IMG/VR virus record: IMGVR_UViG_3300030107_004238
Coordinates: 1 to 64,000 of that record
Strand: one strand, 5' to 3'
DNA length: 64,000 nucleotides
Source of the DNA: a virus
Shown: in pieces, positions 51,507-63,985 of the stretch
Layout: each line of letters starts with the position of its first letter
How positions within the stretch are numbered: the first letter of the stretch is position 1
Translations under genes and position numbers: made by a program
The notes under the pieces: generated by a model
Told to the model about the DNA's origin: nothing
Database searches by the model: none
The model's input: the letters and a program-made list of their open reading frames with translations, nothing else

Positions 51507-53377
51507 AGGCTTGTTATTTCGCATGATCCACCGGCACAAGCCAATTCGCCTGATAGATCGGTATTGTCAGCATCTTCTATTACATTTTCTAAACTTATGT
51601 TATGTAATTTAGAAACTAATTTATCAAACTCTTTTTTAGTTATATCTTCAAAAGGAGCTTGAGTATATGTTCCACCATCATAAGGTAAAACAGATAAACC
51701 ATTGTAACACTCTCTATTATCCCACATCCATTTACCAGCTTTATTCCACTCATCTTTTCTTAAGCTAATTGTAGCAGATACATTATGGGTATTTGAACCA
51801 ATCCTATGACCAGTTTTAACCCATTCAGTAGCAACTCTTTTAACTCTTTTCAACAAGTCAAAAGCAGATTCAGTTCTTAATATAGAACCTTTAGGCGCTG
51901 ATTGTGGTATTTCGATAACAGCCGTGTCGTGTGGTCTAAAATATTCATCTTGTACTAATTCTGGATGGTGTATAGCAAGATATTTATATATAGCCTCGTT
52001 TTTACCTACACGAAGTCTTCTAATATAATAATCGTTGTGCCAAGCATGAATACCTGAAGATGTTCCAAGCACAAGAGATGTTGTCCCTGCTGGTTTAACA
52101 CATGTTGTTCTAGCAGCTTTATTTATCCCTATTAGTTTTGCTACTCTCGTGTTTTCTCTTTTTACGATACTTGCAGCGGCCTTCATATCCAGCGGGAGCA
52201 CAGCGGCACTCGCGATTCCTGTCATTGACACACCTATAAGTGCGTCTTTCTCTGTTGTTTCTTGCCATATTTCTCTTAGATAGTGGAATTCCGTATAACC
52301 TGCTTGAAGCGTTCCAATGAAGGCTGCAGCTTTAACTCGATCATTCAGGTCTTCTTGGTCTGTGACGTCACTTACATTAACTTCACACAGATTACAGAAC
52401 TGATAAGGCCTTAGTGCTATTTCACAGCAAGGATTAGTTCCCCAATCCTTATCATGGTTGAAATATATTCCTGGTTCACCAGCCCCGGATAATTCAATAC
52501 GTTTCCACAAATCTAAGAAAAATTCTTTAGTAACTTTGTGTCGCATTAGTACAGCAGAGTTATTTGCTCTACCTCTTTGTGGGTTTTTTTCCCACCAACT
52601 TCCAGATTTACACGAAATCATTTCTTCATCATATGCTGAAAACAAACTTATTAACGCTGCTCGTCTGATACCACCAGCGAGTACAGCATCAGCAATATGA
52701 CAAATAATATCATGGACTTCAAGAGTAGTAAGTTGTGTTCCATCTTGTTTTGATTCTAGTATTCCTTTTATTTTTACAATACATTCTTTTAAAGGTTGAG
52801 GTCCTGGTGCTTTTCCACCTGAGGTCACAAGCATAGCTCCCTTTGGTCTAATATCAGAATAATCAAATTTTATCTTAGATGATCTCTTAGAGCCTAAATA
52901 AGACTTAATTAAAACTTTTATTGCATCTGACCAACCCTCAATACTATCTCCAATAACAAATCTTCTAGTTCTACCTTGAAATGGTTTTGTTATATGTGGA
53001 AGAGAGGTAATATGATGTCTTTGAACACTATAACCAACACCGCAACCAGATAGCAAAAGGAACATACACTCACTAAAGCTATCGACATGATCGATAGGTA
53101 AGTAACTACAGTTATATAATCTATTCGGACTGATTTCAATTGGCTTACCACTAAACTGAAGCGAACGCATACTTGGTAAAACTTTTTTCTTATAGACATA
53201 TCTATATACTTCTTCTATTTGATTAAATAATTTTGGATATTTTTTTTGGTGCATTTCCTTGTTTCTTGAGACTAGTTCTTCCCATGTTTCTCTTCTATTG
53301 AGTTCTGGAAGATACTTAGCATACTTCATGTAGATTGTTAAATCTGAAAGTATTTTTTTATTAAGATCTTTATCCAT
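51503..53377 (-). CDS. nrdJ: class II (adenosylcobalamin-dependent) ribonucleotide reductase
   Basis: A 624-residue monomeric class II reductase of the triphosphate-reductase type, which makes dNTPs using a B12-derived radical. Active-site residues match the Lactobacillus-type enzyme: Cys90 (RLYNCSYL), Asn315-Cys317-Glu319 (NPCCE), Cys328 (FCNLCEVNV) eleven residues after Cys317, TTCVKPAGTTSLVLGTSSG, and the C-terminal CAGGSC (Cys614, Cys619) that re-reduces the active site. It needs oxygen-independent B12 rather than a separate NrdB, so it suits a host that makes or imports cobalamin. It is somewhat short (about 740 residues is usual). Its start overlaps the upstream 45-residue gene by 8 nt (ATGGATAA). 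Confidence 0.93.
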   Translation of the reverse strand: MDKDLNKKILSDLTIYMKYAKYLPELNRRETWEELVSRNKEMHQKKYPKLFNQIEEVYRYVYKKKVLPSMRSLQFSGKPIEISPNRLYNCSYLPIDHVDSFSECMFLLLSGCGVGYSVQRHHITSLPHITKPFQGRTRRFVIGDSIEGWSDAIKVLIKSYLGSKRSSKIKFDYSDIRPKGAMLVTSGGKAPGPQPLKECIVKIKGILESKQDGTQLTTLEVHDIICHIADAVLAGGIRRAALISLFSAYDEEMISCKSGSWWEKNPQRGRANNSAVLMRHKVTKEFFLDLWKRIELSGAGEPGIYFNHDKDWGTNPCCEIALRPYQFCNLCEVNVSDVTDQEDLNDRVKAAAFIGTLQAGYTEFHYLREIWQETTEKDALIGVSMTGIASAAVLPLDMKAAASIVKRENTRVAKLIGINKAARTTCVKPAGTTSLVLGTSSGIHAWHNDYYIRRLRVGKNEAIYKYLAIHHPELVQDEYFRPHDTAVIEIPQSAPKGSILRTESAFDLLKRVKRVATEWVKTGHRIGSNTHNVSATISLRKDEWNKAGKWMWDNRECYNGLSVLPYDGGTYTQAPFEDITKKEFDKLVSKLHNISLENVIEDADNTDLSGELACAGGSCEITSL

Positions 53378-59570: not shown

Positions 59571-60329
59571 TTACAGGTAATCAAGCACTTGCGAGTGATC
59601 TACATTTTCTATTAATTTATCTACTGCTTGCTTTTTTAATTGTGAAACTCTAACATAAGAACTGTTGCCTTCAATACCTATTTTATTAGCTATCTCTGTA
59701 GCGGAATGTTTTTCGCAATCAAGTCCATAACTTAATCTTAACACCTCAAACTCTTTATCTGTTAAGTGTTGTTTTAATAAACTTGTTAGATATAAATTCA
59801 ATAAAGTCATATTATATGGTTCACTTTCGTCTGGTATTTGATATATCATATTAGAATCATCGTTTGGTCCTTCATCTATACTTAAAAAGATAGAGTTAAA
59901 AAACATAGCTACCATCTTTTTGTTTTTACCAAAGTTCTTACGTATTTCATTATACATATGTTCTGGTATTCTAATATCGCCTCTATTAATATCTATACCT
60001 CTTCTAATTGCTCCTTTAATTCTTTTAGAAAAGAAAGACTTTAAAGTTTTTTCTATATCATCAGATTTTTCCAATACTTCTCTATCTAATCTATCTACTG
60101 CTTTTTTTAATCCTACACTTCCTTCTTGTATCAAGTCTAATATACTCATAACTCCCGATGCTTGTTGTGATGTTGAGAATTTTCTAGCTATATTTTCTAC
60201 AAGTGGCAGAAAAATTATTACTAATTCTTCTTTTGTGTATTCATTCCATTCTTTTTTACCTATTCTTTTTATAGATGCTTCTACATCATTTTTATATCTA
60301 ATATAATTTTGTATATTATAGTTCTTCAT
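59571..60329 (-). CDS. sigma-70-family RNA polymerase sigma factor
   Basis: A 252-residue sigma factor. Region 2 is seen in FLPLVENIARKF, SILDLIQEGSVGLKKAVDRL and SFFSKRIKGAIRRG, and region 4 in LTDKEFEVLRLSYGLD with the HTH SATEIANKIGIEGNSSYVRV. It would redirect host RNA polymerase to phage promoters, probably the late operons. The gene overlaps the preceding nucleotidase gene by 14 nt. The repeated GTGTAA-Y-TATATATATAC motif (30231, 59516) is a candidate recognition site, which is inference. Between regions 2 and 4 there is a region-3-like stretch. Confidence 0.88.
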   Translation of the reverse strand: MKNYNIQNYIRYKNDVEASIKRIGKKEWNEYTKEELVIIFLPLVENIARKFSTSQQASGVMSILDLIQEGSVGLKKAVDRLDREVLEKSDDIEKTLKSFFSKRIKGAIRRGIDINRGDIRIPEHMYNEIRKNFGKNKKMVAMFFNSIFLSIDEGPNDDSNMIYQIPDESEPYNMTLLNLYLTSLLKQHLTDKEFEVLRLSYGLDCEKHSATEIANKIGIEGNSSYVRVSQLKKQAVDKLIENVDHSQVLDYL

Positions 60330-60762
60330 TTTTGTGTTTTTTATAGATCAATTCTAATGTTGACGGCCAATCTAAACATCTTTGAGCTGTGCCAAACCAA
60401 AGCCATGTGCCTTTAAAATCTGGTTGTCCTCTCCATCTACTATCATCAATTAAAATATCTCCGATTAATAAATCTTTTCTATGTGTTAATATTAGTTTTC
60501 GTTTTAACCATGGGAAATGTTCTGCTAACCACTCTCTTTTAGCTCCCCATTCTGATGGTCTATCCCATGGTGGTGTTGATGCTATAAATATATCGAAATC
60601 TTTATTTAATTTTATTAGTGCATCTTGTGCGCCAGGTATTATTTCTAAATTTCTATAATCTACATGTTTATCTGGTCTGTGTTTCCAACCACCTTCATCT
60701 GCTGCTTTTTTAAAGTTAGCTATAACACCATCCATATCTATAAATATTATTTTTTTACTCAT
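60316..60762 (-). CDS. 5'(3')-deoxyribonucleotidase (HAD family)
   Basis: A 148-residue HAD phosphatase of the NT5C/deoxyribonucleotidase type, which dephosphorylates dNMPs. HAD motif I is FIDMDGVIANF, motif II IFIASTPPWDRPSEW and motif III/IV LILTHRKDLLIGDILIDDS. It belongs with the dNTP-pool genes (NrdJ, MazG, HMase-like) and could remove unmodified dCMP or other unwanted nucleotides. It starts 8 nt (ATGAGTAA) inside the end of the HTH gene. Confidence 0.85.
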   Translation of the reverse strand: MSKKIIFIDMDGVIANFKKAADEGGWKHRPDKHVDYRNLEIIPGAQDALIKLNKDFDIFIASTPPWDRPSEWGAKREWLAEHFPWLKRKLILTHRKDLLIGDILIDDSRWRGQPDFKGTWLWFGTAQRCLDWPSTLELIYKKHKNEEL

Positions 60763-61381
60763 TTAATTGTTGGTTTAATAATTCTTTTTCTCGTTTTAAT
60801 TCTGTACACATATTTCTATGTATTGTTCTAGTAGAACAGTCTAATAATCCAGCTACTCTACTTATAGTAATCTTCTTACTTGATTCGTTTAAATCTATCA
60901 TGCATTGATAAATATCATCTGGATGTATCTTTTTAGATCTACCTATCAACTCTCCTACGATACGTAGTTTCTCTTCTTTACTAATTCTAGTAAATGGTTT
61001 GAATATAACTTTACGTAGTTTATTTTTAGGTGGTTCATCTAAGTCTAACATACTAACCTCATATACTATCTTACGTAGTAGTTCAACGTGTATAGCAAAA
61101 GAAATAAAACCATTAGGTTTATGACATATTACCTCTGCTAGTTTCATAAAATCATCTTGATCTAGTTGTGGGTTAAGATACCAAAGAACAAGCAGATGCC
61201 ACTTGAGAGATTTATACGTAGTTATTTTGGCGGAAGATCTGAATAGCTCATAGCATTCATGAGTGCCATTTAGATAAAACATATATACTTCGTTCTCTTG
61301 ATCTGGTATATCTGTTATTGGTTTTCTACGGTATACGATGCGACGATCGTTTAGGTATTTAAGGTTTCTCTCGTGTGACAT
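60755..61381 (-). CDS. HTH-containing hypothetical protein (possible regulator)
   Basis: A 208-residue basic protein. The C-terminal SSKKITISRVAGLLDCSTRT with IHRNMCTELKREKELL (residues about 164-200) reads as a helix-turn-helix with a following helix, so it may bind DNA. The N-terminal 130 residues are unassigned, with several Trp and aromatic residues (KSLKWHLLVLWYLNPQL). It sits before the nucleotidase and sigma factor genes. An early regulator or replication initiator is plausible. Confidence 0.65.
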   Translation of the reverse strand: MSHERNLKYLNDRRIVYRRKPITDIPDQENEVYMFYLNGTHECYELFRSSAKITTYKSLKWHLLVLWYLNPQLDQDDFMKLAEVICHKPNGFISFAIHVELLRKIVYEVSMLDLDEPPKNKLRKVIFKPFTRISKEEKLRIVGELIGRSKKIHPDDIYQCMIDLNESSKKITISRVAGLLDCSTRTIHRNMCTELKREKELLNQQLNE

Positions 61382-61388
61382 TAGCCTA

Positions 61389-61523
61389 TTACTTATTATA
61401 TTTAGGGGCTGTTGTCACAGTCCCCTTTGGTTTCAATGTTGCAATAATTATCCTTGTTTCGTTATCATTAGGATATTTTATTTTATTCCAATTATCTATT
61501 CGTTTGATTAATTCTTTATTCAT
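61389..61523 (-). CDS. 44-residue hypothetical microprotein
   Basis: A 44-residue basic frame, MNKELIKRIDNWNKIKYPND and following, ending TTAPKYNK. Its start overlaps the upstream 35-residue gene by ATGAATAA (8 nt). It contains an NKELIKRIDNW helix and IIIATLKPKG. It has no signal or membrane segment. Support comes from precise coupling and gap-free packing. Confidence 0.6.
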   Translation of the reverse strand: MNKELIKRIDNWNKIKYPNDNETRIIIATLKPKGTVTTAPKYNK

Positions 61524-61623
61524 TTTGATATTTAATTATCTTTTCTAATACTTTTACTAATTTAGTTAAGGCTTTAGTTAAGTCGCTAATGTCCCTATAC
61601 ATTTGTTGTTGATTCTTATTCAT
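61516..61623 (-). CDS. 35-residue helical microprotein
   Basis: A 35-residue frame MNKNQQQMYRDISDLTKALT and following, with a leucine/valine heptad pattern over residues 12-30 (DLTKALTKLVKVLEKIIKY). It would be a single amphipathic helix, perhaps a coiled coil. It is linked to both neighbours by identical ATGAATAA overlaps. Function unknown; regulation or membrane binding is possible. Confidence 0.6.
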   Translation of the reverse strand: MNKNQQQMYRDISDLTKALTKLVKVLEKIIKYQNE

Positions 61624-61750
61624 TTTCTTTTTCTTTAGTTGAATACCATCTTATTTCTTTATCACCATCCCACTCTGTAATTACGTGTACCCTATTACTA
61701 CAAGAAGATAATACAACCAACAATATCGCTATTTTAATTATTTTATTCAT
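61616..61750 (-). CDS. small lipoprotein
   Basis: A 44-residue precursor, MNKIIKIAILLVVLSSCSNR, with a typical signal II sequence and lipobox LSSC (Cys17), followed by a short mature part (VHVITEWDGDKEIRWYSTKE). It would be anchored to a membrane in the periplasm or on the cell surface. It starts 8 nt inside the DNA ligase gene (ATGAATAA). A phage lipoprotein of this size could block superinfection, as known small lipoproteins of some phages do; this is inference. Confidence 0.72.
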   Translation of the reverse strand: MNKIIKIAILLVVLSSCSNRVHVITEWDGDKEIRWYSTKEKENE

Positions 61751-62624
61751 AATTTCTAATACATTTAAATAATGGATGTCTATAACTACCAGCTTTTGTA
61801 CGTTCAAAGAAAGTAAAGGTAGCACGTTGGCCAATATAATCGCTTATATTATCGAGCATATCAGCAAGATCCTTGTAGGTATACCCCTTGCCCGGTGGAC
61901 AACCGAACTCTATACCTTCGTCATCTTGCATTATGAACTTACCAAGCGTGCCAGTCCTTTTTCCTTTACCATCTAAATAACCAATGATTGTAGCTTCGGC
62001 ATCGCTGAAGTCTTTGAATTTACGTAGATTGTGAGAACGTTTGCATTTATAAGTACCGTTGGTACGTACAATAGAGCCTTCGTAACCTGTATTTAAATTC
62101 ATTTGATGAATAGCTCTAGCTTGATCTTCGCTACATATATTTTTAGTAGTAGACACATGCTTAATACAGTGATTGCGTGGTACAACTTGAGTAATAAATC
62201 TATTACGCTCTTCAAATGTCATAGTTTCATCTATTATATCATAACAATGAAATTGTACATTCTCAGCTGATATAGATCTATCCTCGTCTGTTGGTTTTGT
62301 TTTTCTGACCATAGATATGATAGATTCAAAATCGTCTCTAAAATCGTGATTATACAACTCACCATCAAGTATAACATTAGGGTATTTAAAAAAGAAAGGT
62401 TTTAATTGTTCTAATATATGATCTATATTTTTCCATTCTTTACCTGTGCGTGAGTATGCTGTTACTCTGACGCCAGGTATAGGATAACCAGAACTTGAGT
62501 AATCTGGCTCAGCCTGTATCACACATCTAACACCATCTAATTTTGGTTGTATAAATACTGGTTTATCATAATCTATTGGTTTATCGCTTACTGGATAAGC
62601 TAACATTGGTTTTTTTCTCATCAT
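61743..62624 (-). CDS. ATP-dependent DNA ligase
   Basis: A 293-residue ligase of T7-like size that seals nicks in replicating DNA. The adenylation lysine is Lys28 in IQPKLDGVRC (motif I). VILDGELYNH is motif III, YEGSIVRTNG motif IV and LRKFKDFSDAEATIIGY the motif V region. The C-terminal OB-fold domain (about 215-293) holds TGTLGKFIMQ and RATFTFFERTKAGSYRHP. It has no BRCT or zinc-finger domain. Its stop overlaps the lipoprotein start. Confidence 0.92.
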   Translation of the reverse strand: MMRKKPMLAYPVSDKPIDYDKPVFIQPKLDGVRCVIQAEPDYSSSGYPIPGVRVTAYSRTGKEWKNIDHILEQLKPFFFKYPNVILDGELYNHDFRDDFESIISMVRKTKPTDEDRSISAENVQFHCYDIIDETMTFEERNRFITQVVPRNHCIKHVSTTKNICSEDQARAIHQMNLNTGYEGSIVRTNGTYKCKRSHNLRKFKDFSDAEATIIGYLDGKGKRTGTLGKFIMQDDEGIEFGCPPGKGYTYKDLADMLDNISDYIGQRATFTFFERTKAGSYRHPLFKCIRNYE

Positions 62625-62962
62625 TATTTATATTTTTTAAGTATTTTATTTACTTGATCCATTCTGTTTTTGATAATAGCACATTTTTCATATTCTTCAT
62701 CTTGTTTGCATATATCCATTAGTGTTAATAATTTAGCTGCTTCGCCTAAAGCCTCTATTTCTTCTGACAACTCTAAATCTTTATATGGTTGCCAAGAGGT
62801 TTCAGTACGGTTAACGTGATTAAACCAATCTTCCATAGATTTTAACTTAACCATTCGGCTAACTATTTTAACAGCTAAAGCGTTTAATCCAGCATCATCT
62901 AATTTTGAATCTTCTAATGCTTTTAATATTTGTTTGTTTGTTACCCTTTTATTATCCGTCAT
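62624..62962 (-). CDS. hypothetical protein with UVR-like motif
   Basis: A 112-residue helical protein. Its C-terminal EEYEKCAIIKNRMDQVNKIL resembles the UVR/UvrBC-type helical hairpin found in UvrB, UvrC and Clp proteins, which mediates binding to a partner. The rest is charged helix. It shares one base with the ligase start and overlaps the upstream gene by 11 nt. Function unknown; a DNA-repair link is only suggested by the motif. Confidence 0.6.
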   Translation of the reverse strand: MTDNKRVTNKQILKALEDSKLDDAGLNALAVKIVSRMVKLKSMEDWFNHVNRTETSWQPYKDLELSEEIEALGEAAKLLTLMDICKQDEEYEKCAIIKNRMDQVNKILKKYK

Positions 62963-63347
62963 AATTCGTATTTTGTTTGTATTTTTCTATTAATTTATCT
63001 GGTCTCCCTACAAAGATACATTTATCTTCATCTTTTCCAATATATTGATTGCAATCTTTACAATATCTTGGAAAACTTACTTCAAATATACTTATCCAAG
63101 CGCCGGCATCTGGTTTTTGCCACACATAATATATATATTCTAGATCACCGTGTTTTGTATCTAAATCTTCTATTTCCCACCTATTTATTTTACCGTAATT
63201 AGTAAAACATTCAGCTATTTCTACTCCCAATCCCTCAGGATAACCATCACTATGCACGTAAAACTGTGCGTGAATTTTTTCTGGATGCTCGTTAAACGTT
63301 ACTCCTTCTTCACGTGTAGCGAATCTAACTTGTGCTCTTGTACTCAT
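62952..63347 (-). CDS. hypothetical protein with Cys cluster
   Basis: A 131-residue protein starting MSTRAQVRFATREEGV, with AQFYVHSDGYPEGLGVEIAE in the first third and a possible zinc site CKDCNQYIGKDEDKC near residues 95-110. Its N-terminal pattern is one I associate with small proteins of marine phages of unknown function. It belongs to the early leftward operon, overlapping the next gene by 11 nt. No enzymatic motif is recognised. Confidence 0.62.
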   Translation of the reverse strand: MSTRAQVRFATREEGVTFNEHPEKIHAQFYVHSDGYPEGLGVEIAECFTNYGKINRWEIEDLDTKHGDLEYIYYVWQKPDAGAWISIFEVSFPRYCKDCNQYIGKDEDKCIFVGRPDKLIEKYKQNTNYDG

Positions 63348-63349
63348 AT

Positions 63350-63985
63350 TTATTTTGTTATTATATTTTCTATATAGTTCATAAAATCATCAAATATTGT
63401 TATTCCTTTTATATAACTATTATTATTATCTTTTATTTTTCCGTTTGTTATCTTACCATTTCTTTTTAAATCTTTTATAGCTAATTTAACGTCTTTTGGA
63501 TTATGAGAGTTATAAAAATAATAATCTCTATTAAAATTTAACTTTTTCATATGTTTAAATGGACACCAACGTTGTTCTATTTGTTTTACAGCATTTAACA
63601 TTCTTAGAATAGGTAATATATTTAATAATATGTTATCTTTTTCTTTATAATCTTTTATTTTGTTTAATATAGGATTTAAATATATATCTTCACAAATTAA
63701 ATTAGAATAATGCTTATGTTCTATAAAAAAAGGCTCATATAAATCTAACCATTCTTCAAGTAACAATGGAGTTTTTAATTTAGATATTTTATTCTCATCA
63801 TTACTAATTTCTAAAATTGTATCATAAAATATTTCCATTCCACCATTACAGATACTACACCAATCACAACCTATTTTATTATCTCCATCTACAAACCTAG
63901 TAAATGAAATGTAATTATATATATCTCCTTTTTTAAACTGCTTTAAGGTTTTCATTGTTCTAACTACTTCTAATATTAATTCCAT
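63350..63985 (-). CDS. hypothetical protein
   Basis: A 211-residue protein rich in Ile, Asn, Lys and Asp, with Cys residues in CDWCSICNGGMEIF (about 40-53). The start could instead be the ATG at 63955 (MKTLKQFKKGDIYN), ten codons later. No known fold or motif is recognised. It is the most upstream gene of the leftward block visible here; its promoter lies beyond the window. An AT-rich stretch precedes it. Confidence 0.55.
   Translation of the reverse strand: MELILEVVRTMKTLKQFKKGDIYNYISFTRFVDGDNKIGCDWCSICNGGMEIFYDTILEISNDENKISKLKTPLLLEEWLDLYEPFFIEHKHYSNLICEDIYLNPILNKIKDYKEKDNILLNILPILRMLNAVKQIEQRWCPFKHMKKLNFNRDYYFYNSHNPKDVKLAIKDLKRNGKITNGKIKDNNNSYIKGITIFDDFMNYIENIITK

Follow-up and report, generated by a model that had tools for sequence, protein, structure and literature searches.

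Phages gain accessory genes at insertion sites (morons), with boundary sequences at the joints between modules, and genes inserted in the manner of morons carry a promoter and a terminator of their own. Neighbouring genes may also be linked through their translation. A distance of −8 to +10 nt between the stop of one gene and the start of the next is held to predict coupling, which is less strong at −8 than with shorter overlaps (PMC10666635); overlaps of 4 nt and 1 nt make up about 45% and 15% of all, respectively (PMC3887535). In Bacteroidetes, Shine-Dalgarno sequences do not seem to be used at overlaps (PMC6728339), and starts favour an A at −3 and have few stray AUGs nearby (PMC6847099). 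In the viral DNA described here, the end of a DNA ligase gene appears to be a fixed docking start for translation, used in turn by exchangeable microgenes through termination-reinitiation, a reading to which we assign a probability of roughly three in four.

The slot between the ligase and HTH genes

The window, i.e., the whole stretch of DNA analysed, comprises 64,000 of the 71,968 bases of an IMG/VR virus record. The terminase closest to the one encoded here is that of the unclassified phage MW202828 (64.6% identity); those of Flavobacterium and Cellulophaga phages are less than 60% identical (45.8% for the Flavobacterium elemo phages). Judged by these phage relatives, the hosts are probably Flavobacteriales. 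Neither the DNA of positions 60300–62700 nor the HTH protein described below found a match among 50,697 phage records.

All features of the locus lie on the minus strand. The ATP-dependent DNA ligase gene (61743–62624; PHROG 114, E = 1.7e-74; Pfam DNA_ligase_A_M and OB_2) ends in Asn-Tyr-Glu-stop (TAT GAA TAA), a sequence that holds an out-of-frame ATG. From this ATG opens an orphan, lipoprotein-like microgene of 44 codons (61616–61750; LSSC), which scores 17 bits against LPAM_1 (E = 0.0079), below the cut-off of 20. It is followed by a helical microgene of 35 codons (61516–61623) and by a second 44-codon microgene (61389–61523), the product of which has a single short predicted helix (residues 3–14) and is otherwise coil. 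The C-terminal codons of the latter overlap a conserved cis element, the inverted repeat TGTGACAAnAGCC...GGCTAATGTCACA (61374–61419), which lies over the start of an HTH-like protein gene and closes the slot. This last gene (60755–61381, 208 aa) forms the downstream border; its HTH_23 and HTH_11 similarities are weak (E = 0.03, below cut-off). The protein model (pLDDT 90.5) matches one nameless viral model (E = 1.4e-12); at E 0.001, none of the PDB folds matches it.

The ligase and the HTH gene were each used to scan for relatives, giving 80 and 60 loci, respectively; from these came 80 distinct regions, the window counted in, that hold the two genes in this order. The interval between them ranges from 93 to 2719 nt and carries one to eight genes. 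Unrelated genes thus sit between the same two conserved genes, as in an accessory-gene insertion slot. Two contigs carry two divergent ligase-HTH regions each (L020 and L098; L023 and L034), near opposite ends, and are either chimeras or cases of real duplication.

Tyrosine codon and gene start at the ligase end

Every ligase in the 80 regions ends in Tyr-Glu-stop, preceded by Asn or Asp. The Tyr codon is TAT in 67 regions and TAC in 13. TAT supplies an ATG that is one base out of frame and overlaps the ligase stop by 8 nt (−8), and an A stands at −3 of this ATG position in all 80 ends. Open reading frames of at least 28 codons (28–96) begin at the −8 ATG in 65 of the 67 TAT regions, while in all 13 TAC regions the next gene begins elsewhere, at −1, −4, +1 or other places. 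The TAC half of this pattern is forced, as TAC cannot give ATG, so the informative comparison is that of the Tyr wobble base with the presence of an open frame of at least 25 codons. Such a frame is present in 65 TAT regions and absent from two, against two and 11 TAC regions, respectively (Fisher test, 5.5e-10), and on the ligase tree seven of eight independent pairs agree with the link (sign test, p = 0.016). The overlap at the ligase end behaves as a functional start, the TAT codon being linked to an open frame across the relatives.

Elsewhere in these ligases, the Tyr codons show little preference (TAT 628, TAC 549, or about 53% TAT). Among the 15 regions that do not use the ATG, 13 have TAC, compared to 549 of 1177 at the other ligase Tyr codons (p = 0.0017). 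The start is kept when it is used, and is lost by a synonymous change in 13/15 of the cases in which it is not. Nine further ligase ends from outside the 80 regions (matches cut off before the end of the ligase being excluded) comprise seven with TAT, six of which open a frame of at least 28 codons, and two with TAC; the latter are undocked and are followed by the same type of gene (MNIFYL start) at −1 or −4.

Five loci depart from the rule, and count against a docking start: two TAT regions do not use their ATG (L027 and L078), the seventh of the additional TAT ends opens only seven codons (L009), and in two TAC regions the frame is open since it is also that of the next gene (L030 and L034). 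The last 50 bases of L009 contain a tandem 20 nt duplication of the docked start just behind the ligase, at the contig end, and this may be an assembly artefact or a real duplication.

The genes that begin at −8 are diverse. Single linkage gives 20 docked families, a count that is approximate in both directions for such short proteins, with two families merged and others perhaps split. When genes were called without regard to offset, the next gene was at −8 behind 64 of the 80 ligases and in 21 of 25 next families, compared to 11/26, 5/19 and 4/16 families at the commonest offset of other gene ends with many neighbour families. At the other junctions of the same loci, −8 occurs in 53 of 1244 cases (4%). 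On the ligase tree, the docked family must have changed at least 30 times, and at least 12 changes between the docked and undocked states are required, nine of them forced by well supported branches. The end of the HTH gene keeps an offset of −4 in 40/75 cases and 9/11 next families, and may be a further docking start on a smaller scale; the corresponding joint of the window (60755–60762) is at −8, unlike the −4 of its relatives.

A docking start would operate as follows. Whichever small gene currently adjoins the ligase would take the ATG in the ligase end as its own start, and a ribosome that finishes the ligase could restart at once on the microgene. The docked gene would change often while the start stays, and where the neighbour brings its own start the ligase would use the synonymous TAC, which abolishes the ATG. 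The docked gene of the window would be the lipoprotein-like one, with two more microgenes following by the same type of joint. The 8 nt overlap found in 65/80 regions lies within the very short stop-to-start distances of termination-reinitiation, although reinitiation is described as more efficient at shorter overlaps than at −8 (PMC10666635). Tyr-Glu is kept with TAC too, which argues that this end exists for the ligase and that the start is borrowed. Recombination inside the ligase may also swap downstream blocks, in which case the joint would be inherited rather than made anew.

Could the overlap have arisen by codon bias only, with no role of its own? A-rich starts (MNK, MSK) meeting an obligatory Tyr-Glu-stop would yield ATGAATAA, and in the phase of the −8 joints no shorter overlap can exist (PMC10666635). 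The frequency of the octamer agrees with this. As reported by the first-pass annotation, ATGAATAA forms exact 8 nt stop/start overlaps on the minus strand at 61743–61750, 61616–61623 and 61516–61523, in each of which the ATG opens the next frame and the TAA closes the previous one, and the same geometry is found between called genes at 60755–60762 (ATGAGTAA) and 53370–53377 (ATGGATAA). Yet ATGAATAA is not enriched in the window (six observed, 9.2 expected), nor is ATGRRTAA (22 observed, 22.0 expected), so the signal is one of position, not of number. Among the window junctions, 5/24 on the minus strand and 0/38 on the plus strand are at −8. In relatives, ATGAATAA is the commonest form of the −8 joint, both at the ligase (31/65) and at later joints of the slot (8/16). 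A special meaning of the identical octamer was rejected, ATGAATAA being the commonest form given a −8 joint; the identity of the three copies mostly reflects codon bias and carries little weight. Codon bias accounts for that identity, but not for the TAT/TAC switch, and leaves unexplained the long open frames of 65/67 TAT regions and the presence of 21/25 neighbour families at one offset. It is already disfavoured as a full explanation, and we consider it unlikely.

The microgenes, their joints and the inverted repeat

The microgene sizes given by the first-pass annotation (44, 35 and 44 codons) are correct, whereas its view that such genes are too short for standard gene callers is doubtful: the frames are 108–135 nt long, above the 90 nt that we take to be the minimum gene length of a common caller. 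Two of the three are under purifying selection. Homologues of the helical gene (pN/pS 0.31, n = 14) and of the second 44-codon gene (0.52, n = 47) recur in many relatives, compared to a pN/pS of 0.37 (n = 44) for the HTH gene; all of these values are pooled over sequences picked by motif, and the cis element in the tail of the 44-codon gene influences the value for that gene. For the lipoprotein-like frame, no homologue was found in the fetched loci, nor by peptide pattern, and the pattern matches that did appear were rejected, having only 7–14 residues in common with it. Selection is thus seen on two of the three frames, and the refuting condition set by the first-pass annotation, homologous phages that lack the frames, holds for the third. 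A conserved chain of three microgenes was rejected: the lipoprotein-like gene is an orphan, gene order differs among relatives, and the joints between microgenes differ in almost every one. Of the 80 regions, two have three −8 joints in succession, namely the window and L011, and the genes involved are not the same.

Comparison with close relatives indicates how the chain of the window may have been assembled. In L002 (82% ligase identity) and L006, the ligase is joined to the helical gene by ATGAATAG, without the lipoprotein-like gene, and both flanks align with the window, where that gene sits exactly between two copies of the octamer. In L100 this position is taken by an unrelated gene, again with the octamer on both sides, and L117 is arranged in the same way. 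Microgenes therefore appear to come and go at the octamer; the lipoprotein-like gene may have been gained by the window or lost by its relatives.

These arrangements, an extra gene between two octamer copies in the window and both flanks kept in L002 and L006, are also what would be seen if the octamer were primarily a recombination joint, with short ATGAATAR homologies at gene borders allowing clean insertion or loss of microgenes and the overlap left as a trace. Eight bases are short for homologous recombination, however, and the joints show no longer shared homology. In most relatives the later joints have other offsets or octamers, and a recombination joint gives no account of why undocked ligase ends lack the ATG through use of TAC. 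We regard this explanation as rather improbable, though better placed than codon bias.

The downstream border of the slot carries a different kind of signal. Upstream of the HTH gene lies TGTGACAAnAGCC, with a GAC-to-ATG distance of 34–37 nt, and then ARTAAYAGGCTAATGTCAYA. In a search anchored on ATGTCA near the HTH start, this hexamer was present in 80/80 regions, and neither GAC nor ATGTCA varies among 77 distinct sequences. The upstream half of the repeat is translated in one frame in 53 regions and in another in 22, and falls outside called genes in five; in 7/80 regions, the ATG and the HTH gene are in different frames. Since the repeat spans differing frames, it is conserved as a signal and not as protein. 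In a further 20 HTH loci, 15 match, two have ATGTCG, and three distant ones are without the element; TGTGACAAnAGCC...GGCTAATGTCACA has a single exact copy in the window. In seven regions (L010, L011, L012, L018, L021, L041 and L048) the ATGTCACA start opens an out-of-frame leader of 3–11 codons, and the HTH gene begins 8–20 nt later.

A long-range hairpin hiding the HTH start was rejected: 92.9% of cells are paired, with no covariation beyond shuffles, and an RNA stem is unsupported. An inverted repeat bound by protein would fit equally well, and the element is possibly an operator for the HTH protein (autoregulatory) or a site of translational or RNA control. In many relatives, a GGGGaCUGU-gaca-ACAGCCCC hairpin, both arms of which show changes, could fold in the tail of the 44-codon gene (61395–61425, minus strand). 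Double changes occur in 48 cells, compared to 26.3 in shuffles, with only 65.6% of cells able to pair, and this hairpin would compete with the longer inverted repeat.

That the tail of the 44-codon gene carries a conserved element independent of frame might suggest that the microgenes are untranslated and the region conserved as RNA or DNA. The pN/pS values of two microgenes speak against this, as do the lack of Rfam matches in 60000–63500 and the extent of the element, which covers the tail of one gene only. We judge it very improbable.

Comparison with known systems

The docking reading may, tentatively, be extended to a standing socket in a phage core gene, where any incoming microgene takes over the start and a synonymous change switches it off. 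New small genes would then be expressed at once, with neither promoter nor ribosome site, and the octamer would be both restart signal and joint for gene addition; this extended form is possible, but well short of probable. Genes in the socket might perhaps serve host takeover or counter-defence. Borrowing a start inside the end of a neighbour's protein would be one answer to how tiny new genes are expressed on arrival. Given the synonymous TAT/TAC switch, sequence data suffice to test the docking claim, and other gene ends and other phages can be examined in the same way, which may reveal further sockets and unannotated microgenes.

A shared docking start of this kind was not named in the open-access literature searched, and the locus has points in common with three described systems. 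As in the avoidance of stray AUGs in Bacteroidetes, which the TAC switch fits, the ATG is removed by TAC in 13/15 regions that use another start, and the A at −3 in 80/80 ligase ends is like that of the non-Shine-Dalgarno starts of this group (PMC6847099). The trend described there is a bacterial, genome-wide one, whereas here a single codon is switched in a phage gene, with Flavobacteriales as likely hosts. Like termination-reinitiation pairs (ATGA, TAATG and the −8 class), the start lies inside the end of the preceding gene, within −8 to +10 nt (PMC10666635). The known cases are fixed gene pairs, whereas about 20 unrelated genes are found on one start here, and the rule at this ligase end is −8, not −4 or −1. 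Like morons, small genes rotate between two conserved genes; unlike morons, it is the slot itself that supplies the start codon.
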